The notes under the pieces are model-generated. The model saw only the letters and a list, made by a program, of their open reading frames with translations. It ran no database searches and was not told the DNA's origin. From NCBI RefSeq assembly GCF_009177095.1, contig NZ_AP021861.1:1-64000 (forward strand): a DNA stretch of 64,000 bases. The letters run 5' to 3'. The position numbers were made by a program, and so were the translations under genes. This DNA comes from Lacipirellula parvula (GTDB lineage Bacteria > Planctomycetota > Planctomycetia > Pirellulales > Lacipirellulaceae). Position 1 is the first letter of the stretch. The number at the start of each line of letters is the position of its first letter. Of this stretch, positions 5,699-55,848 are shown in pieces.

Positions 5699-6056
5699 GG
5701 GAGGGAATTTTAGCCGCGGCGGGCGATGGCGGGGAAGGAATTTTCTTGGGGAGTGGCGGGGGGCGAGATTGGGAAAGTGCTGTTTAGGCTAAAGCCGGGT
5801 TGTGGGAGGCGTCTCCGACGCCGATGCCGGTCACTACTCCAGGCGGTTTTCGGTAGCTCAACGCCGCTTCGGGGTCGGAGACCCCTCCCACAGGTTTTCT
5901 CAAGTCCCTCCCGCAGATTTACTGGCAACGCGGCCGGGTGTGACGGTTTTGTCGGCAGTTGGCCGGTGGTTTTCGGGCTGCAAAACTGTCGCTAACCTGC
6001 GGCCGAGCGGACATAATGGAAGGACTCGACCGAACTCCTCAGGAGCCGCACCGACG
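5699..6056. other. intergenic region between recQ and the metallopeptidase gene
   Basis: About 360 bases with no supported coding region. It holds an inverted pair of GGAG-type palindromes (5801-5893). The stretch 5990-6056 must contain the promoter and leader of the rightward metallopeptidase gene, but no convincing -35/-10 pair could be chosen. Confidence 0.6.
5801..5893. repeat. inverted pair of GGAG-type palindromes
   Basis: TGTGGGAGGCGTCTCCGACG on the left and the reverse-complement form ending CCTCCCACAG on the right, about 45 bases apart (BIME-like). Each arm is itself a small hairpin after GGAG. Confidence 0.85.
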
Positions 6057-7118
6057 ATGCGTCGACTTCTCTTTGCCGCCCTCGTGGCCATTGTAGCGCT
6101 CAGCTCGCACTCTGCGCGGGTGCTAGCGTTCGATTTGCAATTCACCATCCCGAACGATGGCGGGCAGTTCGATGCGAATGAGATGAACATCCTCAACGCG
6201 GCGCTAGTGCGCGTCGAGCGGATGTGGGAGATGGTGATCACTGGCTATCAGCCGGGGATCAATGTCGCGAGCGTGCCGATCACGATCTATCCGACGACGA
6301 GCGGACTCGCGGCGGCGAATTTTTCGAGCTTAGCATCTCCAGCCGATTCTCCGGTTTTTGCGGTCGCCACGAGCGGGTTTGTGAACGTCAACGTGAACGA
6401 GATTGAGAACTTCGCCAATTGGCAAGGCGTTGGCGCCAATGGGCGGAACTACATCGACGAGTTGCTGGCCCACGAAGTGGGGCATGTCCTGGGCATCGGC
6501 ACGCTGTGGACGGCGAACAACGTTTACGCGAACAACACATTCCACTACACCGGCGCTTACGGGTTGGCGGCGTATCAGGCAGAGTTCAACCAAGCGGTCG
6601 CCTATGTGCCGGTCGAGAACGCTGGCAACCCCGGCACGCCGAACTCGCATTGGGATCAACTGATGCGGAGCAGTCCGCAAGAGGGGAACCCGAGCGATCC
6701 CTTCTCGCTCGACCCGCGCGTCGGCGTCGTCGACCAGTATGGCCGCGACCGCGGGCTGGAGTTGATGACGGGCGCCATCGACCCCGATTATGGCGAGCCG
6801 TTCTTGTCGCGGTTCACGGTCGAGTCGATGCGCGACCTCGGTTACACCGTCGCGAAGTTTGAAGACTTCAACGGCGACGGCGTCGTGAATTTGGCCGACC
6901 GCGCGATTCTGATGGCGAACATGGGCGCCACCGGTTTGGAGATCGACAGCATTGCATTCGGCGATGCGAATCGCGACCGCGTCGTGAACGCGGCGGACCT
7001 GGCGCTGTGGCAAGCGGCGGCCGGCGTGCCGGAGCCGAGCGCGTGGGTGCTGGCGCTCGGCGCGGCGGCGGTGATTCGCCTGCGGCGGAAGATCGCGATG
7101 CGGCGTGAAGCCCCATAG
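6057..7118 (+). CDS. leishmanolysin-like metallopeptidase with dockerin-like repeats and PEP-CTERM signal
   Basis: A secreted, probably surface-sorted zinc peptidase of 353 residues. It starts with a signal peptide (MRRLLFAALVAIVALSSHSA, cleavage near VLA-FD), which is why the ATG at 6057 is preferred over upstream in-frame starts. The catalytic motif HEVGHVLGIGTLW (HExxHxxG) lies near residue 138 and a later SHWDQ gives a plausible third His ligand, as in M8 peptidases. Two calcium-loop units follow (DFNGDGVVNLADRAILM and DANRDRVVNAADLALWQ), a type I dockerin-like pair. The C-terminus is VPEPSAWVLALGAAAVIRLRRK, a PEP-CTERM sorting signal (VPEP, hydrophobic helix, basic tail) for EpsH/XrtA-type exosortase. 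The substrate is unknown and no exosortase gene is in the window. Confidence 0.88.
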   Translation: MRRLLFAALVAIVALSSHSARVLAFDLQFTIPNDGGQFDANEMNILNAALVRVERMWEMVITGYQPGINVASVPITIYPTTSGLAAANFSSLASPADSPVFAVATSGFVNVNVNEIENFANWQGVGANGRNYIDELLAHEVGHVLGIGTLWTANNVYANNTFHYTGAYGLAAYQAEFNQAVAYVPVENAGNPGTPNSHWDQLMRSSPQEGNPSDPFSLDPRVGVVDQYGRDRGLELMTGAIDPDYGEPFLSRFTVESMRDLGYTVAKFEDFNGDGVVNLADRAILMANMGATGLEIDSIAFGDANRDRVVNAADLALWQAAAGVPEPSAWVLALGAAAVIRLRRKIAMRREAP

Positions 7119-7317
7119 GGGCGGCATCATGTAGCCAGGGGCGTGAGCCCCTGGTAAACTTTGCATTGCTCTAAAGCCCTGAAAGGGCGCTGAAAGGGCG
7201 AAAGAGTTCCTGCCGCACCGCAGGAGTTATGTCGCCCCTCCGGGGCTCGCTTGCCTCAGATCGACGCAGACCAGGGGCTTGCGCCCCTGGCTACATTATT
7301 CCGCCCCTCTGGGGCTA
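7109..7317. repeat. inverted pair of GTAG-type palindromes
   Basis: GTAGCCAGGGGCGTGAGCCCCTGG at 7131-7154 and its near reverse complement (CCAGGGGCTTGCGCCCCTGG then CTAC) at 7271-7294; flanking GCCCCATAGGGGC and GCCCCTCTGGGGC hairpins extend the symmetry. It fills the space between the metallopeptidase and putA stops. Confidence 0.85.
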
Positions 7318-7330
7318 TCGCGCTTCTGTG

Positions 7331-10300
7331 CTAACTGACCTCTGCTCGCGGTTCGTCCGCCCGGCGGCCGAGGTTGCCGTAGCGGTGGTAGACGTGCGAC
7401 AGGCTTTGTTCCTGTTGGTACCAGAGCAATTCCACGCGGCCGTGGGCGAGGACGGGGGCGTCGGCGATGTAAACGTAGGCCTCGGTCGCGGCGATGCGGA
7501 TGGCGTCGGGGACGCGCGAGCGGTCGGCGTAGCGGAGCCGCCCGACCCCGCCGGCTTGGATCGCAGCGACGAGTTGCTCGTCGCTCTCCGTGATGAACTC
7601 AATGGCGCCGGCCCAGTTGTCGGTCGCCCCGTCGAGTAGTGCGACCGCTTGTCGCAGCGACTCGGGCAGCGCCGGCGACGAGCTGACGACGACGCGGCAA
7701 CCGGCGGCGCGGGCGGCCGCGGCGCGTGCGAAGACGTCCCATGGCGCATCGCCGTCGGCGACGCGCAACCGTACGTTCGCCACGGCGCGATAGCGCCGCA
7801 GGTTATCTTCACCGACGAGCAGGAAATGATCGTGGGCCGGTTCGAACTCGTCGAGCGTCCAGGCGAGGTAGCTGTCGATCGCGTGGTCGAGGCGGGCCAG
7901 ATCGGCGGCGGTGAGGAGGAGGCGAGCCGACTGGCCGAGCGCGGCGAGCGTGTGGCGGAGCGAGTGGAGGTGCGTTTGGCGTTCCGCGACCGATTCGTGG
8001 GGGAGGATGAGGGAGTCGGGGGGGAAGACGATGTCGAGCTCTTCGGCGCGTGAGGATTGGGCCGCGGGGACCGGGGGGATGAACCCCCCGGCTCGCTGTT
8101 GGTTTGCCGGTGACTCCTTATCTTCAAACGCCATGAGCGGGGCGACGTAGTTCGGGCCGCCGGCTTTGATGCCGGGGCCGAAGGCGCTTTTGCCCAGGCC
8201 GCCGAATGGTTGCCGCAGGACGATGGCGCCGGTCGTCGGGCGATTGATATAGAGGTTGCCCGCGCGGATCCCTTCCTGCCAAATGCGATGCTCGCGATCG
8301 TCGAGGCTTTCAAGACCCGAGGTGAGGCCGTAGCCAGTGGCGTTCACGAGGTCGATCGCCGCGTGCAGGTTCTTCGCGCTCATCACGCCGAGGAGCGGGC
8401 CGAAGAATTCCGTGAGGTGAGTGATGCTGCCAGGCTGAACGCCCCACTTCACGCCTGGGCTCACCAGCGAGGCGTTGCCATCGACGTGCAGCCGCGGCAT
8501 CACGGCCCACGATTCGCCCCCTTCGAGTTCCTTCAATGCGCGTTCGAGGTCGCCGCTCGGCGGGCGGATGAGGGGGCCCATTTTTGAATGGAGTTCCCAG
8601 GCGGAGCCGACGCGGAGGCTTTCGACGGCGTCGCACAGCGTCGCGCGGAACTTGGCGTCTTCGTACACTTCCTCTTCGAGAATCAACAGCGACGTTGCCG
8701 AGCACTTTTGTCCGCTGTGGCTGAACGCTGAGTGGAGGACGTTCTTGATCGCGAGGTCGCGATCGGAGAGCGCGGTGACGATTGTGGCGTTCTTGCCGCC
8801 GGTTTCGGCCAGCAGGTTGATCGACGGCTTGCGGTGCAGCATGTCGAGCGCCGTCTCGGTACCGCCGGTGAGGATCACGGCATCGACGGCGTGATGGCTG
8901 ATGAGTTGTTGGCCGACGGTGGCGCCGCTGCAGGGGACGAACTGCAGCGCGGTGCGCGGCACGCCGGCGGCCCAGAAGCATTCGCAGAGGGCGTGGGCGA
9001 TGAGGACCGTGTCGGAGGCGGGCTTGAGGATGACCGTGTTCCCCGCCGCGAGGGCGGCCGCGACGCCGCCGCACGGGATGGCGAGCGGGAAGTTCCACGG
9101 CGAGACGACTATAACCACCCCTCTGCCGCGCGCGGCGAGTCCCGGCAGCTCGTAGAAGTCTTGCGCGGTCTCGGCGTAGAAGCAGCAGAAGTCGATTGCT
9201 TCGGAGATTTCGGGATCACTCTCGGTGAGGAGCTTGCCCCCTTCGGCGAGCATGGCGCCCATGAGATCGCCGCGGCGGCGGGCGAGTTCGTCGGCAACGC
9301 GGTGGAGCGTGGCGGTGCGCTCGCGCGGCGGCAGGCGGCGCCAGCCGTCGGGGTCGGCGGCGGCGCACTGCACGGCGTGGGCGGCGTCGTTCGCGGTTGC
9401 TTGGCGGTACTTCGCAACGACTGTCTTGGGACGTGACGGGTCGGTTGAGGGGCGGACTTCACGGTCGTCGAAGAGTTGTTCGCCAGCGATCACCAGCGGG
9501 ACTTGCGTGGCGTTGTCGCCGTGGCGGGGTTGCCAGCGGGCGAGGATGTCGGCGCCCCAGTCGCTGTTGGCGGGTAGCGACCAGTCGGTGTCGGGGGCGT
9601 TGGTGAAGTCGGTGGCGGGGTGCGTGGGGGAGATGAGTGGAGCGGGGGGCGGGGGGACCGCGGGGATGAACCCCGCGGCTCGCGAGTCGTTGGTTGTTGA
9701 TTCTTGGGTTCGATCTTGAACTCGGCGCGGTTCGTCAGTGAGCGTCTGCATCGCATCGAAGCTGGCGACGAAGTTTTGCTCCAGGCGGTTCCAAGTGGCT
9801 CCGCCGACTTCGAGGTTGAAGGCATAGCGCAAGAAGTTGTCGGGGCCGGTGTTTTCGTCGAGGCGGCGGACGAGGTAGCCGATCGCGTTGATGAAATCTT
9901 CTTGCCGGCAGGCGGGGGCGTAGAGGAGCAGGTTCTCGGCGAGTTCGAACAGCGCGCGGCGTTGGTGGTTCGCCATCCCTTCGAGCATCTCGAACTGGAC
10001 GTGATCGAGTTGCCCCGACTGCGCGGCAAGCACCAGGCCGTAAGCGATCGAGAAGAGATTGTGCGAAGCGACGCCGAGCCGGACCGCGGCGAGGTTCTCC
10101 GGCTGCATGCCATACTGCAGCATGCGGTGGTAGTTGGCGTCGGTGTGAAGCTTGTCGCTAAACGTCGCGAGCGGCCAGCCGCGGAGGCTCGCTTCGACGC
10201 GTTCCATTTCCATGTTGGCGCCTTTCACGACGCGGATCGTCGCGGGGGCGCCCCCCTGCTCTACTCGGCGGCGGGCCCACTCGGTGATGCGGCGCTGCGT

Positions 10301-11188
10301 GGCGAACGAATCGGGAATGTACGCCTGCAGCGCGATGCCGGCGTGGAGCTGTTCGAATCCAGGCCGATCGAGCGTTCGCATGAAGACTTTGGAGGTGATC
10401 TCCTTATCGCGGTACTCTTCCATGTCGAGGTAGACGAACTTCGACACGAGTTGGCCGTCGTGACGGCGGAACTTGTTCTTCGCGGCGGCGCGGTAGAGGA
10501 GTTCGAGCCGATCGCACAGCACCTCGATCGTATGCTCGCGGGCGAGGCCGGAGATTTGCGAATAGATTGTCGAGATCTTCACCGACATCACTTCGATGAA
10601 CGGCTCCTGCAGCGCCTGGAGGTACGACTTGAGGCGAGCCTGGGCGTCTTCCTCCCCCAGCAGCGATTCGCCGAGGTAGTTAACGTTCATCCGCAGCCCT
10701 TCGTGGCGGCGGTCTTCGAGATGTTGCCGCAGCAGGTCTTCCTCGGCCGGCAGCACGACGTTGGCCGTCTCTTGCTGCATCTTTTCCTTCACGAGCGGCA
10801 TCGCGACGCCGGGGAGGTAGGCGCCGAACGATTGGAAGCCTTTCAGCAGCGTGCGGTCGAGCGGGCCGAAGAATCGCGGCACGCCCTGGACGTCGAGGAT
10901 GTGAATCAGCTGGTCGGCGGCGCGGGGCGAGAGCTGGGCGCGGAACGCCTGGTCGGTGATCTCGACCATCGTCGCCTTGTCGGCGGGCGATTGAATCATG
11001 CGGTCGAGTTCGGCCTGTTGACGCCGCTCGGCCGAGGTTTGCATCTCGCGGGCGGTTCCCTGCAGCTTGCGCGCGATGAGGAGGGCGCGTTCGACGTCGC
11101 TGGCGGGCGACCCCGCGGCGACGGCGGGCGTTTCGGCCAGGAGTTTTGCAAGGCGGTGGGTGAGATTGTCGTTCGCTGCCGGCGCCAC
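7331..11188 (-). CDS. putA: bifunctional proline dehydrogenase / L-glutamate-gamma-semialdehyde dehydrogenase PutA
   Basis: Oxidises proline to glutamate in two steps. The 1285-residue protein has an FAD-dependent PRODH barrel (about 130-480, with IRVVKGANMEME and FSDKLHTDANYHRML) and an NAD-dependent aldehyde dehydrogenase domain (about 590-1020). The latter has SPWNFPLAIP, the catalytic Glu in ETGGKN (about 795) and the nucleophile in SGQKCSATS (Cys about 829). A C-terminal domain of about 240 residues follows; no N-terminal ribbon-helix-helix is present, so it is not a trifunctional repressor. Two short low-complexity stretches, RAAGFIPAV (about 503) and RAGGFIPPV (about 1035), are translations of the dispersed palindrome found elsewhere in the window. 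Both lie at domain borders where an insertion would be tolerated. Monocistronic by position. Confidence 0.96.
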   Translation of the reverse strand: MAPAANDNLTHRLAKLLAETPAVAAGSPASDVERALLIARKLQGTAREMQTSAERRQQAELDRMIQSPADKATMVEITDQAFRAQLSPRAADQLIHILDVQGVPRFFGPLDRTLLKGFQSFGAYLPGVAMPLVKEKMQQETANVVLPAEEDLLRQHLEDRRHEGLRMNVNYLGESLLGEEDAQARLKSYLQALQEPFIEVMSVKISTIYSQISGLAREHTIEVLCDRLELLYRAAAKNKFRRHDGQLVSKFVYLDMEEYRDKEITSKVFMRTLDRPGFEQLHAGIALQAYIPDSFATQRRITEWARRRVEQGGAPATIRVVKGANMEMERVEASLRGWPLATFSDKLHTDANYHRMLQYGMQPENLAAVRLGVASHNLFSIAYGLVLAAQSGQLDHVQFEMLEGMANHQRRALFELAENLLLYAPACRQEDFINAIGYLVRRLDENTGPDNFLRYAFNLEVGGATWNRLEQNFVASFDAMQTLTDEPRRVQDRTQESTTNDSRAAGFIPAVPPPPAPLISPTHPATDFTNAPDTDWSLPANSDWGADILARWQPRHGDNATQVPLVIAGEQLFDDREVRPSTDPSRPKTVVAKYRQATANDAAHAVQCAAADPDGWRRLPPRERTATLHRVADELARRRGDLMGAMLAEGGKLLTESDPEISEAIDFCCFYAETAQDFYELPGLAARGRGVVIVVSPWNFPLAIPCGGVAAALAAGNTVILKPASDTVLIAHALCECFWAAGVPRTALQFVPCSGATVGQQLISHHAVDAVILTGGTETALDMLHRKPSINLLAETGGKNATIVTALSDRDLAIKNVLHSAFSHSGQKCSATSLLILEEEVYEDAKFRATLCDAVESLRVGSAWELHSKMGPLIRPPSGDLERALKELEGGESWAVMPRLHVDGNASLVSPGVKWGVQPGSITHLTEFFGPLLGVMSAKNLHAAIDLVNATGYGLTSGLESLDDREHRIWQEGIRAGNLYINRPTTGAIVLRQPFGGLGKSAFGPGIKAGGPNYVAPLMAFEDKESPANQQRAGGFIPPVPAAQSSRAEELDIVFPPDSLILPHESVAERQTHLHSLRHTLAALGQSARLLLTAADLARLDHAIDSYLAWTLDEFEPAHDHFLLVGEDNLRRYRAVANVRLRVADGDAPWDVFARAAAARAAGCRVVVSSSPALPESLRQAVALLDGATDNWAGAIEFITESDEQLVAAIQAGGVGRLRYADRSRVPDAIRIAATEAYVYIADAPVLAHGRVELLWYQQEQSLSHVYHRYGNLGRRADEPRAEVS
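8069..8097 (-). repeat. palindrome inside putA, GGCTCGCT family
   Basis: GACCGGGGGGATGAACCCCC then CGGCTCGCT; read in frame in putA as RAGGFIPPV (about residue 1035). Same family as 9657-9684, 15796-15823, 16803-16830, 26560-26587, 29599-29627, 30639-30668 and 37956-37984. Confidence 0.85.
9657..9684 (-). repeat. palindrome inside putA, GGCTCGCT family
   Basis: ACCGCGGGGATGAACCCCGC then GGCTCGCG; read in frame as RAAGFIPAV (about residue 503) between the proline dehydrogenase and aldehyde dehydrogenase domains. Confidence 0.85.
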
Positions 11189-15524: not shown

Positions 15525-15836
15525 TGCCTAGCCGAGTGCCGTCGGTCGGAATAACCTCCGCAGCGGGCGCCGCACACCTGCTGTGGTTCGCGAGGCGAGA
15601 GCCGTCTCGAGAAACCTGCCGTCGTCTATCTGCTGTTAATCTAACACCGCGCCGGCGCCGATTGAACTGGAAAATGAGGGCTAATTTTTGTGAGATCGCG
15701 CGTCGGTTTTACGTTGCGTTGGCGACGCTTGGCGTTCGGTGGGAGCGCGATGGGCGGTTGCTTACGGGAATGTCAGGATGATGAGCGCCGCCAAGACCGC
15801 GGGGATGAACCCCGCGGCTCGCTATGGGGATGACGG
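15525..15836. other. intergenic region upstream of the CBS-korAB run
   Basis: About 310 bases with no supported gene. It should carry the leftward promoter of the CBS-korAB run near its left end and holds one palindrome (15796-15823) near the end of the next leftward gene. Nothing else recognised. Confidence 0.5.
15796..15823. repeat. palindrome, GGCTCGCT family
   Basis: ACCGCGGGGATGAACCCCGC then GGCTCGCT, beyond the stop of the hypothetical gene ending at 15837. Confidence 0.85.
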
Positions 15837-16796: not shown

Positions 16797-16830
16797 TGGG
16801 GGACCGGGGGGATGAACCCCCCGGCTCGCT
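16743..16830. repeat. two palindromes at the 5' end of a hypothetical gene
   Basis: AAGCGAGCCGGGGCGTCTCG... at 16743-16773 (RAYT-flanking family, inside the coding 5' end) and ACCGGGGGGATGAACC...GGCTCGCT at 16803-16830 just upstream of the TTG start, in opposite orientations. Confidence 0.8.
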
Positions 16831-21352: not shown

Positions 21353-21430
21353 CGAAGTCACTTTTGTAAGCGATCGGCGATTTGCCGCAAACCCCAATGC
21401 GCGCAGCGGCTTGCTAGCACTCAAGTCGAT

Positions 21431-21523
21431 CTGTGGGAGGCGTCTCCGACGCCGATGAAGCGTAGAGGGAGAGCCGACATGGAAGTGGTGAGCGGAATCG
21501 GCGTCGGAGACGCCTCCCATAAA
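21431..21523. repeat. inverted pair of GGAG-type palindromes
   Basis: CTGTGGGAGGCGTCTCCGAC and, inverted, GTCGGAGACGCCTCCCATAA, about 45 bases apart, between glf and the outer-membrane-like gene. Confidence 0.85.
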
Positions 21524-21524
21524 C

Positions 21525-22652
21525 CTACGCTGCCTTAGCGATCGGCAGCGATCGCCCCAATTCCCGCTCAGCGGCGGCGAGGGCCTGGATGATCGTTTGA
21601 TCCATATCGAAGTATCGATAAGAGCCGAGCCGACCGCCGATGATGGTCGAGGTTTCGTCTGCCAAGCGACGATAGCGCTGGTAGATTTGCACGCTCCGCC
21701 AATCGCGGACGGGGTACGACGCCTCGCGCCCCTGCTGGTAGGCCTGCGGATACTCGTAGGTGACGACGGTCCGCTCGCTCTCGCGCATCGCGAAATGCTT
21801 GTGCTCGATGACGCGAGTATAGGGGATGTTGACGTCGGCGTAGTTGACGACCGCGGCGCCTTGGAAGTCCCCGGTCGCGCGGGTCGTTTGGAAACGCAGC
21901 GAGCGGTATTCGAGTTCGCCGAAGCGATAGTCGAAAAACTCGTCGATCTTGCCGGTGAAGACGACGGACGTTGCGGCAGCTTCGAGTTCTTGACGATTGC
22001 CGAAGAAGTCGACGTTCGTTTGGACCTTGATATTCGGGTGGTCGAGCATGTTCTCGAACAGCCGGGCGTAACCGTCGACGGGGATGCCTTGGTACTCGTC
22101 TTCGAAGAAGCTGTCGTCCCAAGTGAGGCGGACGAGCGGCCGTTTGATTGCCGAGGCGGGAAGTTCGCTCGGATCGCGGCCCCATAGCTTGGTCGTGTAA
22201 CCTTGGAAGAAGCGCTCGTACAGTTCGCGGCCGACTTCGCCGACGATCCAGGTTTCAAAACTGTCGTGCGAGCCAGATTGTTGGACGGTTTCGAGCCGGC
22301 GGCGGGCTTCAAGCGGAGTGGTGACGCCCCAGACTTGCTGCAGCGTCGCGAGATTGATGGGGAACGAGTAGAGCTGGTTCCCTTGCCGAACGACGCCGCG
22401 ATGGCGGTAGCGGTTGAACTCGGCGAAGCGATTGACGAAGTCCCAAACCTGCGCGTCGCGGGTGTGGAAAATGTGGGGGCCGTAGCGGTGGACTTCGACG
22501 CCGTCGACCGGTTCGCTGAAGCAGTTGCCGGCGATGTGGGGGCGGCGGTCGACGACCAAGGCGCGGCGACCCGCTTCGGCGACGGTGCGGGCAAAGACGC
22601 TGCCGTACATGCCGGCGCCGACGATTAAGTAATCAAAACCAGCCTTCATCAC
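21525..22652 (-). CDS. glf: UDP-galactopyranose mutase
   Basis: FAD-dependent interconversion of UDP-galactopyranose and UDP-galactofuranose for cell-surface glycans. The 375-residue protein has the N-terminal dinucleotide-binding motif YLIVGAGMYGSVFA, then HIAGNCFSEPVDGVEVHRYG and the conserved GPHIFHT, SFPINLATL, FFQGYTTKLWG, RLTWDDSFFEDEYQGIPVDGY and IIGGRLGSYRYFDMDQTI blocks of bacterial Glf. Length is normal. Either of two adjacent ATGs (22652 or 22649) may be the start. A glycosyltransferase gene lies divergently 600 bases away, which fits a polysaccharide role, though no larger cluster is present. Between this gene and the next leftward one lies an inverted palindrome pair. Confidence 0.96.
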   Translation of the reverse strand: MMKAGFDYLIVGAGMYGSVFARTVAEAGRRALVVDRRPHIAGNCFSEPVDGVEVHRYGPHIFHTRDAQVWDFVNRFAEFNRYRHRGVVRQGNQLYSFPINLATLQQVWGVTTPLEARRRLETVQQSGSHDSFETWIVGEVGRELYERFFQGYTTKLWGRDPSELPASAIKRPLVRLTWDDSFFEDEYQGIPVDGYARLFENMLDHPNIKVQTNVDFFGNRQELEAAATSVVFTGKIDEFFDYRFGELEYRSLRFQTTRATGDFQGAAVVNYADVNIPYTRVIEHKHFAMRESERTVVTYEYPQAYQQGREASYPVRDWRSVQIYQRYRRLADETSTIIGGRLGSYRYFDMDQTIIQALAAAERELGRSLPIAKAA

Positions 22653-23244
22653 TGCACTTCACGCGGTCGCGGGGCTCGCAGATTGCGGCCGGCAGAGTCA
22701 GGCCGGCACGAGGGGGCGGAACTTATAGCAACGGGCCACGATTCGGAGAAGTCGATTCGGCGAGTGCTAGCGAGACAAGTGCGGGGTTGGGACGGCCTAA
22801 GAGTTTGTCGCGAAACGAGTGGCACACGCTCTGCCTAATGAATGGTTTGTGGGAGGCGTCTCCGACGCCGATTCCGGTCACAACCACAAGCTGTTGTGGT
22901 CACGCAAAGCTGCTTCGGGGTCAGAGACCCCTCCCACAAAGTATTTAGATAAAGTTGCTAGCACTTCGTCCACCGGCGGAGCCGGTGGCTTTTATGGGGC
23001 GATAGCGCGGGATTGTCGATGAAAGGGCCCGTTTGTCCGAGGCGTTTTTGGCGTTGCTCGCATTGTTTCCGGACTGTTACTATCCTGCCGCCTGCTCGGG
23101 TTGCCACATGGAAGGGGCGGTCGAGCTTACCAAAATGTCACCGAACTGGGAGCGATGCGTGCCGACGACAATGTCTGCGCCCTCGCTTCCAACCACAGCG
23201 GCGATCCTTTCGTCGTCCTCGCGTTCCGGCTAAGGAAGGCCACG
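22653..23244. other. intergenic region between glf and the glycosyltransferase gene
   Basis: About 590 bases with no supported gene. It holds an inverted palindrome pair (22847-22939) and a separate short hairpin (CCACCGGCGGAGCCGGTGG, near 22977-22995). Short ORFs here lack coding character. Promoters of both divergent genes should lie here. Confidence 0.55.
22847..22939. repeat. inverted pair of GGAG-type palindromes
   Basis: TTTGTGGGAGGCGTCTCCGA and, inverted, GGGTCAGAGACCCCTCCCAC; like the pair at 5801-5893 the right member has a variant stem. Confidence 0.85.
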
Positions 23245-26128: not shown

Positions 26129-26596
26129 GGGGAATCCTTCGGCGGGAGTTTGACCGTGGCGATCAAACCGTGGCGGGCGGTAGGCGGAAAGTTGTCGGGC
26201 GGCGTCGATTCGTGCGACGCCAAAATCGGATCCGAGCAACTCTAACCCCTTGCTGTCGCGCCGTTGGCAGAATTTCGCTGACCGCTAGAGACTTCGCTCT
26301 ACGCAGAGTCAGCGGATGTGCCGTGTATGCCGGGATGGGCCCCCAAAGGGGGCACATTGATCCGTAAACCCTGTGATGCGAACACCCCCGGCCCTGGAAT
26401 GCGCGGAAACACCGGCTTTCTAGGCGTTGTTGACGAGCGTGCGCGGCGGTTGGGGTGAATGCGTCACGGGCGCGTGCAGCGGGGGGCTTTTGCCGTTGTG
26501 GGCTGGGGTGAAGCCTTTGAGGCGCGGGATGAGGCTGTGACCGCGGGATGAATCCGAAGACCGCAGGGATGAACCCTGCGGCTCGCTTGGATGCCA
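26129..26596. other. intergenic region upstream of the response regulator
   Basis: About 470 bases without a supported gene. It holds a partial palindrome (26540-26555) and a full one (26560-26587) close to the end of the next leftward gene. The promoter of the response regulator should lie near its left end. Nothing else was recognised. Confidence 0.5.
26560..26587. repeat. palindrome, GGCTCGCT family
   Basis: ACCGCAGGGATGAACCCTGC then GGCTCGCT; compensating changes in the stem keep the pairing. A partial copy precedes it at 26540-26555. Confidence 0.82.
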
Positions 26597-29563: not shown

Positions 29564-29598
29564 CGCTTGCGTGGGGTGAGGGGTACAATCGGCGGAAG

Positions 29599-29627
29599 GT
29601 CCGAGGGGATAAACCCCTCGGCTCGCT
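29599..29627. repeat. palindrome, GGCTCGCT family
   Basis: GTCCGAGGGGATAAACCCCT then CGGCTCGCT, between pgpA and folD; stem bases differ from other copies but stay paired. Confidence 0.82.
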
Positions 29628-30638: not shown

Positions 30639-30668
30639 GGCGAGCCGGAGGGCTCACCCCTCCGGTCC
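30639..30668. repeat. palindrome, GGCTCGCT family, reverse orientation
   Basis: GGCGAGCCGGAGGGCTCACC then CCTCCGGTC, between folD and the PhnD-like gene. Confidence 0.75.
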
Positions 30669-34822: not shown

Positions 34823-37800
34823 ATGCCTGCCTCCGACATCATTATCAAAGGCGCTCGCGAGCACAACTTGCGGAGCGTCGACGTCACCCTCCCCCGCAAC
34901 CAGCTGATCTGCCTCACCGGCGTCTCGGGGAGCGGTAAAAGCTCGTTGGCGTTCGACACCCTCTTCGCCGAGGGGCAGCGGCGGTACGTCGAAAGCCTGT
35001 CGACGTTTGCCCGCCAATTCCTGGGCCAAATGCCCAAGCCCGACGTCGACCACATCAGCGGCCTGAGCCCCTCGATCTCGATTTCGCAGAAGTCCTCCGG
35101 CAACAATCCCCGCTCGACCGTCGGCACGATCACCGAGATTTACGACTTTTTGCGGGTGCTGTACGCCCGCGTCGGCCAGGGGCACTGCCCCCAGTGCGGC
35201 AAAGTAATCACTGCCCAAAGCCGCGAGGCGATCATCGGGCGGATCGAGCAATTGCCGGCGAAGACGAAGTTCATGGTCCTCGCCCCGGTGGTCCGCCGGC
35301 AGAAGGGCGAGTTCAAAGACCTGTTCGAAGATCTGCAGAAGCAGGGCTACGTCCGCGCGCGGGTCGACGGCCGGGTGGTGCTGCTGAACGAATCGCAATC
35401 GCTCGATCGGCAGATGCGGCACGATATCGAGGTGGTGATCGACCGCCTCGTCGCGGGTCCGACGATTCGGACGCGGCTGGCCGAGGCGGTGGAACTCGCG
35501 CTCAAGCTGGGCGACGGCAACCTCATCGTGACGCCCGAAGTCGATGCGGCTCAACCATCGCTCGAACTCGATGACGAAGATCGCGCTGAACTCGCGGCTG
35601 GCGATGACGAGGACGAGCCCAAGGCGCCAAAGGCGCGCGGCCGTAAGAAGGCGGCGCCTGCCGCTGAGGAAGAGGGGGACGAAGAAGAAGCTCCCGAAGC
35701 CGCCGCTCCCGCCGTTCGTGGGCGTCACAAAGGACACGGCCAGCCGGGCGACATCACCCTCAGCGCCGACTACGCCTGCAACTCGTGCGGCATCAGCTTC
35801 CAACCGCCGACGCCGCAGCTCTTCAGCTTCAACAGTCCGCAGGGGATGTGTCTCTCGTGCGACGGGTTGGGCGAGATGTTCAGCTTCGATCCCGAGAAGC
35901 TCGTTCCCGATCCTTCGCTGTCGTTTGGCGGCGGAGCGATCGAGCTGATCGGCTCATGGAAAGATCTCGGCCGCTGGAAGCGGCACATCTACGCCGGCGT
36001 CGCCGACACGATGGATCGCAAGCTCTCGCTCGGCGACAACTATCTGCTCGAAACTTCTTGGAATGACTTGAGCGACGAAGAACGCCGCATTTGGCTGTGG
36101 GGGACCGGCAGCGAGCACATCACCTACACGTGGCGCAACGGCAAGGCGTCGCAGAAGTACGGCGGTACGTTCGACGGCGTCATCCCTGAACTGCTCGAAA
36201 AGTACCGCACGGCGAAGAGCAAGTCGCTGATCGCGAAGCTTGAACAGTTCATGAACGTCATCCGCTGCCCCGATTGCCATGGCAAGCGGCTCAACGCCCA
36301 GGCGTGCGCGGTGCGGATCACGACGGCGGACGAAGCGTTCGCCGATGCGCCGACGCTGACGCTCCCTGACCTCTGCCACATGCCGATTTCGGAAGTCGAG
36401 AAGTTCTTCAGCGGTCTGATTCTCGACAACACGCAGCAGCAAATTGCCGAGGAGGCGCTCAAGGAGATCCGCGGTCGGCTCGGGTTCCTCACGAACGTCG
36501 GCCTCGAGTACCTCAGCCTCGACCGCACGGCGCCGACGCTTTCAGGCGGTGAATCGCAGCGGATTCGGCTCGCCGGGCAAGTCGGCTGCGGGCTTGTTGG
36601 CGTGCTGTATATCCTCGACGAGCCGTCGATCGGCCTCCACCCGCGCGATAACGATCGCCTGCTGGCGACACTCGAACGGCTGCGTGATCTCGGCAATACG
36701 GTGGTCGTCGTCGAACATGACGAAGATACGATGCGGGCGGCCGACCACATTATCGACTTCGGCCCCGGCCCCGGCGTGCGCGGCGGTAAGGTCGTCGGCA
36801 TTGGCAAGGCGAAGGACGTCGAGAAGTCGAAGGAGAGCGTCACCGGCGCGTATCTCAGTGGCGCGCGGAAGATTGAAGTCCCCAAGGAACGCCGCGTCAC
36901 GCCGTTCCGACCGACGACGCCGACGCGCTTCCGCGGCCCGGTTCCCGCAGCGCCGGAGTTGGAGCCGAACGAGTTCCCGACGATCCGCATCGTCGGCGCC
37001 CGCCACAACAATCTGAAAAACGTCGATGTCGAGATTCCGCTCGGCAAGTTCGTTTGCGTCACCGGCGTCAGCGGCAGCGGCAAGAGCTCGCTGGTGAACG
37101 ACATCGTCAGCGAGTCGCTGCTCCGCGATCTTATGGGAGGCAAAGGAACGCCTGGCGAGCATGATCGGATCGAAGGCATCGAACAGCTCGACAAGCTGAT
37201 CGCGATCGACCAGACGCCAATCGGCCGGACGCCGCGCTCGAACCCGGCGACCTACATCAAGGTGTTCGACGAGATCCGCGATCTCTACGCGCAGCTCTCC
37301 GAGTCGAAACGACGCGGTTACAAGCCGGGGCGGTTCAGCTTCAACGTCGTCGGCGGTCGCTGCGAAGCGTGCAGCGGCAACGGCTCGAACAAGCTCGAGA
37401 TGGATTTCCTCGCCGACGTCTGGATCACTTGCCAGGTCTGCCAGGGGCATCGGTTCAACCACGAAACGCTGCAGGTGCTGTTCAAAGGGAAGTCGATCGC
37501 CGAAGTGTTGGAGATGGACATCCAGCAGGCGATGGAGCACTTCGAAAACGTGCCGGCGGTGTACGATCGGCTCGCAACGCTTCACGCGGTCGGCCTCGAT
37601 TACATGAAGCTGGGGCAGCCCTCCCCTACCCTGTCTGGCGGCGAGGCGCAGCGTATCAAGCTCGCCCGTGAGTTGGTGAAAAAGTCGACCGGCCGGACGA
37701 TGTACCTGCTCGACGAGCCGACCACCGGCCTCCACTTCGCCGACATCGAACTGCTGCTAAAAGTGCTGCACGACTTCGTCGACGTCGGCAACACGGTGCT

Positions 37801-40800
37801 CGTGGTCGAGCACAATCTCGACGTCATTAAGACCGCCGACTGGGTGATCGAGATCGGCCCCGAGGGTGGCAAGGCAGGCGGCCGCGTCGTCATGGCGGGG
37901 ACGCCCGAGCAAATGGTCGACCACGCCATCAAAGCCGAGCAGCAGAATCCTTCCAAGCGAGCCGAGGGGTTAACCCCCTCGATTCCATCGGCCGACGCGC
38001 TCCTTCCTTCGCACACCGGCCTCTCGCTTGCCCCGTACCTCGGCGTGAAGACGCCTAAATCAATCGCCGCCCAACAGGCTGCGAACTCAAAACGCGTCCC
38101 CGTCCCGCAAGCGACGCACATCACCGTCCGTGGCGCTCGGCAGCACAACCTCCGTAACGTCGACGTCTCCGTGCCGCGCGATGAAATGACCGTCTGCTGC
38201 GGCCCGAGCGGCAGCGGCAAGACCTCGCTGGCGATGGACACGATCTATGCCGAAGGGCAGCGTCGTTACGTCGAGAGTTTGTCGAGCTACGCCCGGCAGT
38301 TCATCGGCCAACTGCAGAAGCCAGCCGTCGAACATATTGAAGGTCTCTCGCCGGCGATCGCGATCGAGCAGCGCACCACTGGCCACACGCCGCGGTCGAC
38401 AGTCGGCACGGTCACCGAGATCTACGACTACTTCCGTATTCTGTTGTCGCGCTTGGGCCAGATGCACTGCCCCGACTGCGACATTCCGATCGGCACACAG
38501 TCGCCCGACGAAATCATCACCGCCGTGCTCAGCGAGCCCGAGGGAACCAAGGCCTACTTGATGGCCCCCCTCACGCTCGCACAGGGCGAGCAGTACGAGC
38601 AACTGTGGGCGAAGCTCAAGGGTGACGGCTACCTGCGCGTCCGCGTTGACGGCCAAACCTTCGAACTCGACGCCATGCCGGCCGTCGATCGCCGCCGCAA
38701 GCACGACGTCGAGGTGATCGTCGACCGCATCACGATCCGTAAGGAAGGCCGCGGACGGCTGGCCGACAGTATTGAGAGCGCCCTCTCGCTCGGCCGCGGC
38801 GTGCTGCACCTCGCGATCGTCGACGACAAGCAGACCGAGACGCGCTGGCCGGTGAAGGTTCACAGCCAGCACCTCGTCTGCACGCAGTGCAATCGGAGCT
38901 TCGAGGCGCTGTCGCCGCATCACTTCTCGTTCAATAGCTCGCTCGGCTGGTGCGGGGCGTGCGAAGGACTCGGCACCGAAGTCGGCGCCAACCCGGCGTC
39001 GCTCTTCCGCAGCATGTCGATGAGTCTCGCCGAAGGGGCGATCCTCGTCTGGCCGAACGTGAAGCAGCCGCTGTTCGCCGCGATGCTCGGCGCGCTGCGC
39101 GACCGGTTTGGCATTCCGATCGACGTGCCGTTTGACAAGTTGTCGCCGCGCAATCGCCGGTTGGTGATGTACGGCACCGGGGAGGAGTGGATTGAGGTCG
39201 TTCCCCAAAACGCCGTTCAAAAAGCCGCGACCGGTGGTCGCGGTTCCGCCGTCTCCGAAGACCGCGACCACCGGTCGCGGCTTTCTGCATTTCGTTTCCA
39301 ATACAAAGGGTTGTACCCGGCGCTTGAGGAAGCGTCGCGTTTGTCGCCGCGCCTGCGCGGCCGCCTCGAACATCTGGTCGACGAAATCGAATGCAGCCAG
39401 TGCGGCGGCAGCCGCTTGCGCGACGATTCGGCGGCGGTGCGTTTTCAAACGCGCACGATCGACGAATATTGCCGCCTGCCGCTCGGCGAGTTGCTGCCGA
39501 CGGTCGACAAGTGGAAGCTCCCCGCTCCGCAGAAGAAAATCGCCGGCGAGTTGGTGCGCGAGATTCGCAACCGGCTGACGTTCCTCTGCGACGTCGGGCT
39601 CGAGTACCTCACCATCGGCCGCTCGGCGCCGACGCTCTCGGGCGGCGAGTCGCAGCGGATTCGCTTGGCGAGCCAAGTCGGCAGCGGTCTCTGCGGCGTG
39701 CTCTACGTGCTCGACGAACCGACGATCGGTCTCCATCCGCGCGACAACACGCGATTGGTCGGAGCGCTGCACAAACTCCGCGATCTCGGCAACACGCTGC
39801 TCGTGGTCGAGCATGATCGCGACGTGATCGCCGGCGCCGACGGGCTGCTCGACTTCGGGCCCGCGGCAGGGAAACTGGGCGGCGACATCGTCGCCCGCGG
39901 CACGCCGGAAGAGGTGAGCAAGAAACGGGGCAGCGTCACCGGCCCGTACCTCAGCGGTAAGAAGGCGATCCCGGTGATCAAGAACCGGCGCGTCCTCAGC
40001 GAAGATCCTGCCGCTGATGGCAAGAAGTCGAAGCCCGCGGCCAAGTCGAAGGCGAAGGCCTCCGCACTGCCGCCGTCGACGTTCCCATCGTCGTCGCTGC
40101 GGATCATCAACGCCCGCCACAACAACTTGAAGGGTGTCAACGTCACGATCCCGCTCGGCACGCTCACCGCGGTGACGGGCGTTTCGGGGAGCGGCAAGAG
40201 CTCGTTGGTCGAAGACGTGCTCTACAACCAGCTCGCTCGCCAGCTTCACCGTGCGAAGACGGTTCCGGGCAACCACGACGGCATCGCCGGCGTCGAGCAG
40301 ATCGACAAGGTAATCCGCGTCGATCAACGGCCGCTTGGCAACACGCCGTCGTCGAACCCTGCCACGTACACCGGCGTGTTCGACCTCATTCGCGAGTTGT
40401 TCGCGCAGCTCCCCGAGGCGAAGGTCCGCGGCTACGCGGCGCGGCGGTTTAGTTTCAACGTCCCCGGCGGTCGCTGCGACGACTGCGAGGGCGCCGGCCA
40501 GAAGTGCATCGAGATGCACTTCCTACCCGACGTGTGGGTCGACTGCGATACGTGCCAGGGGCATCGCTATAACCGTGAAACGCTCGACGTGAAGTATCGC
40601 GGCCGCTCGATCGCCGACGTGCTAGAAATGTCGTGCGGCGAAGCTCGCGAACTGTTCGAGAACATTCCGAAGGTTCGCAAAATCCTGCAAACGCTCTGCG
40701 ACGTCGGTCTCGATTACGTCGCGCTCGGCCAGAGCGCCGCGACGCTGTCGGGCGGCGAGGCGCAGCGCGTGAAGCTGGCTGCCGAACTCGCGCGGCCTGA

Positions 40801-42250
40801 TACGGGACGCACGCTCTACATTCTCGACGAACCGACGACCGGTCTTCACTTCGACGATATCGCGAAGCTGCTCGACGTGCTTCATCGGCTCGTCGACCTC
40901 GGCAACACGGTGCTGGTGATCGAGCACAACCTCGACGTCATCAAGCAGTGCGATTGGCTGATCGACATTGGCCCCGAAGCGGGCGCCGGTGGCGGCAGCG
41001 TCGTTGGCCAGGGGACGCCGGAGCAGTTGGTCGAGCAGATGCAGGCGGCTGAAGGCGGAACGTCGAAGGCGAAGAAGAAACCCGCAGCGAAGGGACCGGG
41101 CCTCAGCAATCCGCCGGCCGGATTCCCGTCGCACACGGCGTTTGCACTGGTTCCCGTCCTCGCCGAAGGGCCGCATGTCGAACGCAAGCCGTACGACTTT
41201 GCCGCGGCGGAAGCGAAGCGGCACGGCGACCTCGATATCAACGACCTCGGCAAGGAAGTAAAAATGCCGTGGGAGCTCGATGGCCGGAAGTGGCACGTCG
41301 AGGACCGCGTGTCGCGCAGCGGCGATCCGGTGCGGTGGGACGGGCGGATTCTCGCCGCGATCGACGAGCGGGTGCACCAGCTGAGCGAATCGTTCCTGCC
41401 GACAGATTGGTCGCATCGCACGATCGTCGAGATCAACGGCCAAAAGAAGTCGGACGGTTGGTTCTTCCACGCGATCACTGGCGAGCCGTGGGTGCTCAAG
41501 CTGAAGTTCCGCACCGCGAAGCGGACGTTCAACGCCGAGCGACTCACGGCGGAGCTCAACCTGCCGCCGTTCAACGATCTCGCCGAGATCGAAACCTACG
41601 GCAACGGCCCGCGGGTAAAGTGCAAGAACCTCCGCGGTCCGTTCCAAGAGGTGCAGGTCTTCGCCCACGGGTGGGACGAGCTCAACACGCCGGCGTTTTG
41701 GTCGATGGTGGAACTCGCCGTCGAAGGATTCAAGAAGTTCACCGAGCGCGTCGGGAAGAATCCCGAAGACGTGATGCCGTGGAAGGTGCTCGGCAAGAAG
41801 TGGCACCTCGCGCGCAAGGGCTTCCCGCCGGGGAAGAAGGTGGCTTGGCCGCAGGAGACGCTCGAGGAGCTGCTTGAGCTGTTGGAGTCGACCGCCGCCG
41901 CAGGACTGGCCGCTGAAGCGACCAGTCCGAATGGCGATGCGAAGGCGGGGCCGCAGTTCTTGTGGAACAATCAGCAGGTGGTGCACCTGATGATTCCAGG
42001 GCAGCGGATTCCGTGGGCGACGGTGCAAACCAAGCGGACGGTCGGCGTGGACGTGTCGCTGCACGGCCCCGCGGGGGCGTTTGCGACGGGCCGCGTGGCG
42101 GAGATCGGCGTGAAGCAACTCATTCAACCGGGGAGCGAGGGGTATGACGCGGTGAAGCTGCGGTTCATCACGCCGGAAGACCTCACGCGCGGCGGACTGC
42201 AGAAGTTTCTGGCGGAACACCTCGAAGCAGTGCGGGCTGTAGCGAAGTAG
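34823..42250 (+). CDS. uvrA: fused tandem UvrA (excinuclease ABC subunit A dimer) with C-terminal extension
   Basis: DNA-damage sensor of nucleotide excision repair, here two complete UvrA copies in one 2475-residue chain. Copy 1 (1-1040) has Walker A GVSGSGKSSL (about 33), zinc modules with CPQCG (about 122) and CPDCHGKRL (482), signatures TLSGGESQRI (571) and TLSGGEAQRI (936), and a second Walker A near 746. Copy 2 (1090-2085) has CGPSGSGKTSL (1125), signatures near 1603 and 1973, and a fourth Walker A near 1786. An acidic/lysine linker lies at about 250-310. After 2110 a 360-residue extension carries two MPWxxxGxKWH units (2148 and 2318). Dispersed palindromes are translated in frame near 1045 and 1467-1490. 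ATG 34823 is chosen; upstream in-frame start has no similarity. All four ATPase sites look intact. The stop lies in a palindrome. Confidence 0.95.
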   Translation: MPASDIIIKGAREHNLRSVDVTLPRNQLICLTGVSGSGKSSLAFDTLFAEGQRRYVESLSTFARQFLGQMPKPDVDHISGLSPSISISQKSSGNNPRSTVGTITEIYDFLRVLYARVGQGHCPQCGKVITAQSREAIIGRIEQLPAKTKFMVLAPVVRRQKGEFKDLFEDLQKQGYVRARVDGRVVLLNESQSLDRQMRHDIEVVIDRLVAGPTIRTRLAEAVELALKLGDGNLIVTPEVDAAQPSLELDDEDRAELAAGDDEDEPKAPKARGRKKAAPAAEEEGDEEEAPEAAAPAVRGRHKGHGQPGDITLSADYACNSCGISFQPPTPQLFSFNSPQGMCLSCDGLGEMFSFDPEKLVPDPSLSFGGGAIELIGSWKDLGRWKRHIYAGVADTMDRKLSLGDNYLLETSWNDLSDEERRIWLWGTGSEHITYTWRNGKASQKYGGTFDGVIPELLEKYRTAKSKSLIAKLEQFMNVIRCPDCHGKRLNAQACAVRITTADEAFADAPTLTLPDLCHMPISEVEKFFSGLILDNTQQQIAEEALKEIRGRLGFLTNVGLEYLSLDRTAPTLSGGESQRIRLAGQVGCGLVGVLYILDEPSIGLHPRDNDRLLATLERLRDLGNTVVVVEHDEDTMRAADHIIDFGPGPGVRGGKVVGIGKAKDVEKSKESVTGAYLSGARKIEVPKERRVTPFRPTTPTRFRGPVPAAPELEPNEFPTIRIVGARHNNLKNVDVEIPLGKFVCVTGVSGSGKSSLVNDIVSESLLRDLMGGKGTPGEHDRIEGIEQLDKLIAIDQTPIGRTPRSNPATYIKVFDEIRDLYAQLSESKRRGYKPGRFSFNVVGGRCEACSGNGSNKLEMDFLADVWITCQVCQGHRFNHETLQVLFKGKSIAEVLEMDIQQAMEHFENVPAVYDRLATLHAVGLDYMKLGQPSPTLSGGEAQRIKLARELVKKSTGRTMYLLDEPTTGLHFADIELLLKVLHDFVDVGNTVLVVEHNLDVIKTADWVIEIGPEGGKAGGRVVMAGTPEQMVDHAIKAEQQNPSKRAEGLTPSIPSADALLPSHTGLSLAPYLGVKTPKSIAAQQAANSKRVPVPQATHITVRGARQHNLRNVDVSVPRDEMTVCCGPSGSGKTSLAMDTIYAEGQRRYVESLSSYARQFIGQLQKPAVEHIEGLSPAIAIEQRTTGHTPRSTVGTVTEIYDYFRILLSRLGQMHCPDCDIPIGTQSPDEIITAVLSEPEGTKAYLMAPLTLAQGEQYEQLWAKLKGDGYLRVRVDGQTFELDAMPAVDRRRKHDVEVIVDRITIRKEGRGRLADSIESALSLGRGVLHLAIVDDKQTETRWPVKVHSQHLVCTQCNRSFEALSPHHFSFNSSLGWCGACEGLGTEVGANPASLFRSMSMSLAEGAILVWPNVKQPLFAAMLGALRDRFGIPIDVPFDKLSPRNRRLVMYGTGEEWIEVVPQNAVQKAATGGRGSAVSEDRDHRSRLSAFRFQYKGLYPALEEASRLSPRLRGRLEHLVDEIECSQCGGSRLRDDSAAVRFQTRTIDEYCRLPLGELLPTVDKWKLPAPQKKIAGELVREIRNRLTFLCDVGLEYLTIGRSAPTLSGGESQRIRLASQVGSGLCGVLYVLDEPTIGLHPRDNTRLVGALHKLRDLGNTLLVVEHDRDVIAGADGLLDFGPAAGKLGGDIVARGTPEEVSKKRGSVTGPYLSGKKAIPVIKNRRVLSEDPAADGKKSKPAAKSKAKASALPPSTFPSSSLRIINARHNNLKGVNVTIPLGTLTAVTGVSGSGKSSLVEDVLYNQLARQLHRAKTVPGNHDGIAGVEQIDKVIRVDQRPLGNTPSSNPATYTGVFDLIRELFAQLPEAKVRGYAARRFSFNVPGGRCDDCEGAGQKCIEMHFLPDVWVDCDTCQGHRYNRETLDVKYRGRSIADVLEMSCGEARELFENIPKVRKILQTLCDVGLDYVALGQSAATLSGGEAQRVKLAAELARPDTGRTLYILDEPTTGLHFDDIAKLLDVLHRLVDLGNTVLVIEHNLDVIKQCDWLIDIGPEAGAGGGSVVGQGTPEQLVEQMQAAEGGTSKAKKKPAAKGPGLSNPPAGFPSHTAFALVPVLAEGPHVERKPYDFAAAEAKRHGDLDINDLGKEVKMPWELDGRKWHVEDRVSRSGDPVRWDGRILAAIDERVHQLSESFLPTDWSHRTIVEINGQKKSDGWFFHAITGEPWVLKLKFRTAKRTFNAERLTAELNLPPFNDLAEIETYGNGPRVKCKNLRGPFQEVQVFAHGWDELNTPAFWSMVELAVEGFKKFTERVGKNPEDVMPWKVLGKKWHLARKGFPPGKKVAWPQETLEELLELLESTAAAGLAAEATSPNGDAKAGPQFLWNNQQVVHLMIPGQRIPWATVQTKRTVGVDVSLHGPAGAFATGRVAEIGVKQLIQPGSEGYDAVKLRFITPEDLTRGGLQKFLAEHLEAVRAVAK
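37956..37984 (+). repeat. palindrome inside uvrA, GGCTCGCT family (reverse)
   Basis: AGCGAGCCGAGGGGTTAACC then CCCTCGATT; read in frame as RAEGLTPSI at the junction between the two UvrA copies (about residue 1047). Confidence 0.85.
39221..39284 (+). repeat. perfect 23-bp inverted repeat inside uvrA
   Basis: AAAGCCGCGACCGGTGGTCG+CGG (39221-39243) and its exact reverse complement at 39262-39284, 18-base loop. It is translated in frame (KAATGGRGSAVSEDRDHRSR) in the second UvrA copy. Confidence 0.88.
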
Positions 42251-45880: not shown

Positions 45881-46134
45881 ATTCCGATCATGCTCCGACG
45901 GCGAATTTTGCGTTCGTGTCGTGTCGCTTTGGGCTTAATTGCAAAAAGCGATTTTAGGCGACACTAAGCATTGGCGGTAACTTGTTGCGGTGATTGGGAT
46001 TGCGATGTCGTGTCGTGTTTTAGTGTCGCATTGGACGCGACATGAAGGGGTAACGGGCGGGCGAAACGCTGAGCCGCAAGCGGCTGCTGCGGCACGGTTC
46101 GGCCGCGCATTAGCGATGTGAAGCGGCGGCCGTC

Positions 46135-46160
46135 ATCGGCGTCGGAGACGCCTCCCACAG
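46135..46160. repeat. single GGAG-type palindrome
   Basis: ATCGGCGTCGGAGACGCCTC then CCACAG, the reverse form of the GGAG family, unpaired here. Confidence 0.82.
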
Positions 46161-55507: not shown

Positions 55508-55848
55508 GGCGCGTCCTGTGTCGAGTGGGCGGTTTGTTGAGAGAGGCGACGGAGGGTAGTCGATTCGTCTTTTTTCCTCAACGGCGGCGGGCTACTGGCG
55601 GAGAATGATGGTTGTGGGAGGCGTCTCCGACGCCGAAGCCGCGGTCCATACTAACGCGGCATGGAGAATCAAATCGGCGTCGGAGACGCCTCCCACAGGA
55701 TCGAGTTCAGGCTCCGGCGCGGGGCGTGGCATGATTTCCGGCCTCGCGTAGCTTTCCTACAATGACGGCCGGCCCTGCGACGATACTACAACGTGAACTT
55801 TGAACCGCTGGCGCCAGCATTGCTGGCAGGCGGATGGAATGACGAACG
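55508..55848. other. divergent intergenic region upstream of larC
   Basis: About 340 bases between divergent genes. It holds an inverted pair of GGAG-type palindromes (55612-55699). Promoters for both genes are expected; none picked with confidence. Confidence 0.5.
55612..55699. repeat. inverted pair of GGAG-type palindromes
   Basis: TTGTGGGAGGCGTCTCCGAC and the reverse form GTCGGAGACGCCTCCCACAG, about 40 bases apart, in the divergent region upstream of larC. Confidence 0.85.

Follow-up and report, generated by a model that had tools for sequence, protein, structure and literature searches.

Palindromes read in frame within PutA of Lacipirellula parvula belong to a multicopy hairpin family of probable REP type

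Introduction

The putA gene of Lacipirellula parvula (11188..7331, - strand), which encodes a proline dehydrogenase / P5C dehydrogenase of 1285 aa, hosts two short palindromes that are translated as part of the protein, and the question is where such segments come from and why they persist. The original prediction regarded them as palindromic insertions, with the Rickettsia RPE elements as the nearest known case. Here the palindromes, designated F1, were followed through the window (the first 64 kb of the 6.92-Mb single contig of L. parvula, genome G000), through the rest of that genome and through other genomes of the genus and family. The case is of interest because it connects in-frame protein insertions with a candidate single-strand transposase, and does so in a genus beyond the groups described before; here mobile non-coding repeats supply sequence to enzymes, some of them usually essential (tRNA synthetases, Fmt, GyrB). 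Related Lacipirellula species allow filled and empty sites to be compared, and F1 makes it possible to test whether selection acts at the DNA level on hairpins in coding sequence.

Results and Discussion

Two palindromes in the linkers of PutA

The two elements, each of 30 nt with a perfect 8-bp stem and a TTCAT loop, are:

9655..9684, - strand: F1 palindrome 1 (CGCGAGCCGCGGGGTTCATCCCCGCGGTCC; 52.2 bits), giving RAAGFIPAV at aa 503-511, in linker 1
8068..8097, - strand: F1 palindrome 2 (AGCGAGCCGGGGGGTTCATCCCCCCGGTCC; 54.4 bits), giving RAGGFIPPV at aa 1032-1040, in linker 2

Both peptides are thus in-frame translations of palindromes, as had been predicted, and Pfam confirms their placement between the two catalytic domains and before the C-terminal part: Pro_dh covers aa 155-454 and Aldedh aa 579-1013, with palindrome 1 between them and palindrome 2 just past Aldedh. 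In a minor correction to the family sequence first proposed, the copy at 9655 ends in GGCTCGCG and not in GGCTCGCT; the latter 8-mer occurs 15 times in the window versus 5.5 expected from shuffles, which makes it a poor marker of F1 on its own. In an AlphaFold2 model of aa 440-1285 (34 sequences, mean pLDDT 78.7, 155 of the 846 residues below 50), both copies fall within stretches of pLDDT<50 (model residues 63-72 in 62-87, and 592-601 in 588-624), and the model thus suggests that both sit in flexible linkers.

PutA was compared with that of 80 named relatives (80 loci kept of 359 found), the nearest being Lacipirellula limnantheis I41 with 83%. Neither RAAGFIPAV nor RAGGFIPPV was found in PutA of these 80 relatives, and the F1 model gave no match below E 0.38 in them or in four further loci of the genus. 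The expectation that the segments would be missing from related proteins was borne out, and the conservation in distant species that would have spoken against insertion was not seen.

A multicopy hairpin family nearly restricted to Lacipirellula

The F1 consensus is a 30-nt palindrome, AGCGAGCCGNRGGG-TTCAT-CCCYNCGGTC. With a covariance model built from eight copies, 88 matches were obtained in G000 at E<=10, 76 at E<=0.01 and 66 at E<=0.001. Among the congeners, at E<=0.01, G003 holds 54 copies and G001 holds 20, while three more fragmented Lacipirellula genomes hold 4, 3 and 1; outside the genus, 2 of 34 family genomes gave one match each (E<=0.001), so the family is nearly restricted to Lacipirellula. 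The PutA segments therefore belong to a multicopy family of mobile appearance that is missing from PutA of the relatives, in agreement with their description as palindromic insertions. Besides the PutA pair, the window contains:

15794..15823, - strand: F1 copy, intergenic
16801..16830, - strand: F1 copy, intergenic
26558..26587, - strand: F1 copy, intergenic
29598..29627, - strand: F1 copy with TTTAT loop, intergenic
30639..30668, + strand: weaker F1 copy (36.2 bits), intergenic
37956..37985, + strand: degenerate F1 copy (29.9 bits, E 0.0073), translated as RAEGLTPSI within uvrA (34823..42250)

The head GCGAGCC hardly varies over 74 copies, and within the foot GCGAG the G, G, A and G are present in 74/74 copies and the C in 73/74. 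The stem covaries, its variable pair 10-24 being CG in 42 copies, GC in 18, AT in 10, TA in 3 and TG in 1, and the loops TTCAT (35) and TTTAT (20) make up the majority. Close neighbours (<400 nt) are oppositely oriented in six of seven cases. Folded as DNA, three single copies gave modest z-scores of -1.8 to -2.8, and no Rfam family matched the window's F1 copies at the gathering threshold.

Single-stranded DNA transposition of the IS200/IS605 type might leave an orientation bias between chromosome halves. Counts of the 10-mer GGTTCATCCC gave such a bias by replication strand (25/11 vs 2/12), which is absent in the 76 model-confirmed copies (25-/21+ vs 15-/15+, p 0.82).

Copies inside genes

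Genes were called with a home-made codon-usage model, distinct from an annotation pipeline, and 85 of the 88 matches were classified, leaving aside one 19-nt partial match and two matches above E 7. Of these, 58 are intergenic; the other 27 affect 25 genes, with 25 copies in the gene interior and 2 at an edge. Genic copies are rarer than chance: 27/85 overlap predicted genes, whereas coding sequence makes up 0.81 of the fetched regions (binomial p 2e-23).

The 25 genic copies occur in both orientations and use all six frames. In the sense orientation, nine are read in the RAxGFIPxV frame, three in the SEPRGSSPRS frame and one in the third; in antisense, five are read as TAGMNPAAR, five as DRGDEPRGS and two in the remaining frame. 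The consensus is free of stops in five frames. In the sixth, this last antisense frame, 70 of the 85 copies have a stop, and both genic copies that use it have altered loops and no stop. A preference for the RAAGFIPAV frame was considered and rejected: although it accounts for nine of the 25 genic copies, usage is not clearly unequal over the five consensus-open frames (counts 9, 3, 1, 5 and 5 for 23 copies; p 0.11). As both orientations and six frames occur in genes, RAAGFIPAV does not appear to be a selected peptide. The copy in uvrA does share the sense orientation and the frame of the PutA copies, as originally noted, if with a weak score, but this agreement does not extend to a rule for genic copies.

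At a cut-off of 0.001, 22 of the 25 host genes match a Pfam family and three have no match. The G000 hosts include methionyl-tRNA formyltransferase (Fmt), valyl-tRNA synthetase (ValRS), UvrA, Lnt, a MiaB-like radical SAM enzyme, XdhC, YjeF and, with a copy at its edge, NuoJ; a gene for RNase HII, whose Pfam match spans only the first 25 profile positions, holds two copies. The 54 copies of G003 include 17 within genes and 4 at gene edges, with GyrB and a ribonucleotide reductase among the hosts, and in G001 six of the 17 copies listed are inside genes, including one for threonyl-tRNA synthetase. Since at least six genic copies fall within Pfam domain stretches (Fmt, ValRS, M20, HTTM, YjeF and M56), genic F1 is not confined to linkers.

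Filled and empty sites, and other palindromes at the same places

Orthologues free of the insert were found for the DUF1015 and alpha/beta hydrolase genes (in G001 and G003) and for the M20 peptidase and Fmt genes (in G001), so the insert is not required at these four sites. Filled and empty sites differ in length by 15, 21, 48 and 54 nt. Because neighbouring codons differ as well, these comparisons give neither exact insertion ends nor a target rule.

The linkers of PutA hold other palindromes in sister species. By inspection, linker 1 contains three other palindromes across four other Lacipirellula genomes: GCGAGCCGGGGCGTCCCCGCCCCCGGC in L. limnantheis, which also has CCCCGGGCTCCGCCCGGGG in linker 2; GCGAGCCGGGGCGTCCCCGCCCCCGGC again in G002, read as QRAGASPPPA and the source of the model match at E 0.38; a CTCTCCCC/GGGGAGAG palindrome in G005 (identical in sequence to locus L014); and a 7-bp hairpin with a GCGAGCC head in G004. 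Likewise, the UvrA linker of G001 carries an ATTCCCC-type repeat, and one site in an ABC-2 permease gene is occupied by F1 in antisense in G000, by a GAGCCGGGGCGTC type in G001 and by a weak sense F1 in G003. Hairpins with perfect stems of at least 8 bp numbered 5 in 9,192 nt of PutA linkers versus 33 in 263,751 nt elsewhere (81 genes); as a sign that PutA linkers are hairpin hotspots beyond the genus this is weak, the count being 3 vs 33 once the window's own two are removed, so turnover in the linkers is claimed for the genus, from inspection.

A candidate transposase

At 844754-845296 of G000 an ORF encodes a small HUH/Y1 transposase of 181 aa, with an HUH motif (SNHVHVVV) and a C-terminal Tyr, in NYGAQQ, that aligns with the Tyr of its relatives. 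Five F1 copies flank this ORF, at 844655 and 844702 on one side and at 845334, 845394 and 845450 on the other. The protein lies below the curated cut-offs of known profiles, scoring 25 against NCBIfam REP_Tyr_transpos (E 1.5e-5; cut-off 80) and 15.9 against Pfam Y1_Tnp (cut-off 23); PF01797 alone misses it at 0.001, with a value of 0.015. Of 40 family genomes, 23 hold a match to it at E<=1e-5. At this threshold none was found in G003, which holds 54 F1 copies and is 86% complete, nor in G004 and G005, which hold few.

Thirty loci of this clade, of 42 matches listed, were read. Hairpins with a GAGCC head lie within 400 nt of the gene at 8 of the 30 (the F1 transposase included) versus none of 33 other Y1 loci, one of which, L012, itself weakly matches the F1 transposase; background sequence of 126,000 nt holds 6. 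The other 22 clade loci, several of them cut by contig ends, have no GAGCC-headed hairpin in that distance. The feet of the clade hairpins are nGAG, with CTGA in L199 only. A YGTWLPGDPRGS-type block is common to the F1 transposase and its relatives, several of which have YVLHKQ or a similar Y----Q motif where the F1 protein reads YGAQQA. Judged from its sequence and surroundings, the 181-aa protein is likely to be the mobiliser of F1, and it is perhaps a RAYT of the rare class 3.

Origin and persistence of the genic copies

With a multicopy hairpin family, sites filled in one species and empty in another, and a transposase ORF flanked by copies, the PutA segments are very probably copies of a REP-type mobile palindrome, likely moved by the linked transposase and persisting where they are tolerated. 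The transposase would recognise the hairpin through its GCGAG foot and move single-stranded copies. A copy arriving in coding DNA would survive only if the frame is kept, no stop is added and the site is tolerant, and the survivors would persist as protein segments of roughly 10 residues. As most consensus frames are open, survival inside genes should be easy, and the two same-frame copies in PutA need no special cause beyond the survival of tolerated insertions.

Genic copies shared between species are better conserved than their surroundings. In the eight that G000 and G003 have in common, 71/73 third codon positions agree inside the element versus 737/1144 outside it (about 75 residues on either side; p 4e-11), and a whole-gene control that counted only unchanged residues with GC-ending codons, G001 pairs included, gave 64/66 versus 2019/2911; sites whose orthologue was different or unclear (ABC-2 permease, PutA site 2, UvrA, YjeF, Lnt and alginate export) are outside these counts. 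In Fmt, a compensatory double change of the stem between G000 and G003 alters two residues. Both observations would fit genic elements that are kept for a hairpin function in mRNA or DNA, or by conversion, and not by mere tolerance. We nevertheless consider this explanation rather unlikely: the G000 copies were found by their likeness to the consensus, which biases towards intact ones, the elements rank only in the best 0.6-23% of 9-codon windows of their own genes, orthologues are insert-free at four sites, and separate re-insertion events may have hit one and the same site, so that consensus-based recognition or re-insertion may have caused the identity. The stem variant is, by inspection, the same in both species for 7 of the 8 shared copies, which favours their common descent. 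A broader proposal can be offered, if only tentatively: REP hairpins within genes may continue to belong to the REP population, with hairpin selection at the DNA or RNA level, or REP-to-REP conversion, keeping their palindromes near-exact; protein linkers would then be standing docking sites, and the REP in a given linker would change from species to species by replacement.

That the peptides form a selected motif with a function in the protein is very improbable. RAxGFIPxV is indeed the most frequent genic frame, yet the peptides are missing from PutA of the 80 relatives, other proteins read the same DNA as SEPRGSSPRS, TAGMNPAAR or DRGDEPRGS, and the PutA sites are of low model confidence (pLDDT<50); third codon positions are conserved too, and the expected conservation of peptide but not DNA across species is not seen. 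Elements of the Rickettsia type share with F1 the in-frame translation of palindromes within ORFs, but as described they differ in size, host and apparent mobiliser: RPE-1 is about 100-150 nt long, whereas F1, in another phylum, has 30 nt and is linked to an HUH transposase ORF. An RPE origin is accordingly extremely improbable, and in place of RPEs as nearest kin the RAYT-like transposase beside F1 copies points to biology of the REP/RAYT type. Chance palindromes in GC-rich DNA, for which the high GC and the modest folding z-scores might speak, are next to impossible and are refuted by copy number, 76 copies of one consensus (E<=0.01) set against single matches in 2 of 34 non-genus genomes (E<=0.001).

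Relation to known REP systems

The REP/RAYT systems of the GTAG and CGTC super-families, as presented in excerpts of PMC3733652, resemble F1 in being short multicopy hairpins with a conserved foot that are mostly intergenic, in forming inverted pairs, in having a Y1 transposase beside them and in occurring in frame within genes, uvrA included. F1 falls within the 20-65 nt range of multicopy REP hairpins (8-bp stem, 5-nt loop), is mostly intergenic, forms inverted doublets and flanks an HUH/Y1 transposase gene, albeit one whose protein is below the curated cut-offs. It differs in its foot, GCGAG instead of the canonical GTAG/GGAG or CGTC, which places it outside both super-families, and in that 27/85 copies overlap genes. 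The class 3 TnpAY1 proteins described in excerpts of PMC6006769 resemble the F1 transposase clade in their presence in Planctomycetes, the HUH motif with catalytic Tyr, and atypical multicopy hairpins alongside. The YGTWLPGDPRGS-type block may correspond to their conserved N-terminal region, and their Y----Q motif recurs in several relatives of the F1 transposase, though not in that protein itself; the likeness is one of description, not of profile score, and the published foot is CnGA, not nGAG as here.

In-frame palindromes are thus a kind already known: from the same excerpts, PMC3733652 reports in-frame intragenic REPs in many species, including uvrA genes of O. terrae (Verrucomicrobia), and PMC6006769 reports them within tnpAREP genes. 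The earlier statement that no description existed for this group is true in the narrow sense, but not of the phenomenon. No description of the F1 family, its head or its linker turnover was found in titles and abstract openings of mainly non-subscription literature. New here are the GCGAG-headed family, the PutA linker that holds other palindromes in sister species, and the near-frozen third positions of the eight shared genic copies.

Other palindrome families

Genic shares of other palindrome families were counted in the fetched G000 regions, which were chosen around F1 copies:

CCCCGGGC type: 3/27 genic
GGGAGG(C/G)GTC type: 2/32 genic
GTAGCCAGGGGC type: 0/5 genic
GCGAGCCGGGNCGTC type: 4/9 genic
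CCGCGACC type: 4/7 genic, with inverted pairs in UvrA and ValRS

A TGTGGGAGGCGTCTCCGACGCCGAT palindrome family flanks the L011 Y1 transposase. The fetched regions hold 32 copies of it, 30 of them intergenic; in the window it occurs at 5797-5893, 21425-21528, 22844-22939, 46119-46160 and 55609-55698. The CCGCGACCGGTGGTCGCGG-type family flanks the L012 Y1 transposase gene and forms an inverted pair within uvrA:

39208..39297, + strand: inverted pair of the CCGCGACCGGTGGTCGCGG-type palindrome family, inside the uvrA ORF 34823..42250

The same family forms an inverted pair in the valyl-tRNA synthetase ORF (L128, 2144-2216), and both ORFs hold an F1 copy besides.

RF01687 (the Acido-Lenti-1 'sRNA') matches an inverted pair in the window, at 7109-7154 (-) and 7271-7316 (+). 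Like F1, it is a palindrome family of G000 beside Y1 transposase genes; unlike F1, it has another sequence and a GTAG foot, and the transposases beside it are of a different lineage (L009 type). It lies near the gene in 9 of the 16 Y1 transposase loci tested (L009, L155, L158-L160, L163, L166, L168 and L170), so Acido-Lenti-1, listed as a small RNA, may instead be a RAYT transposon's REP or terminal repeat. The window's UvrA is a tandem double protein of 2475 aa, in which the UvrA interaction domain and the DNA-binding domain each occur twice.
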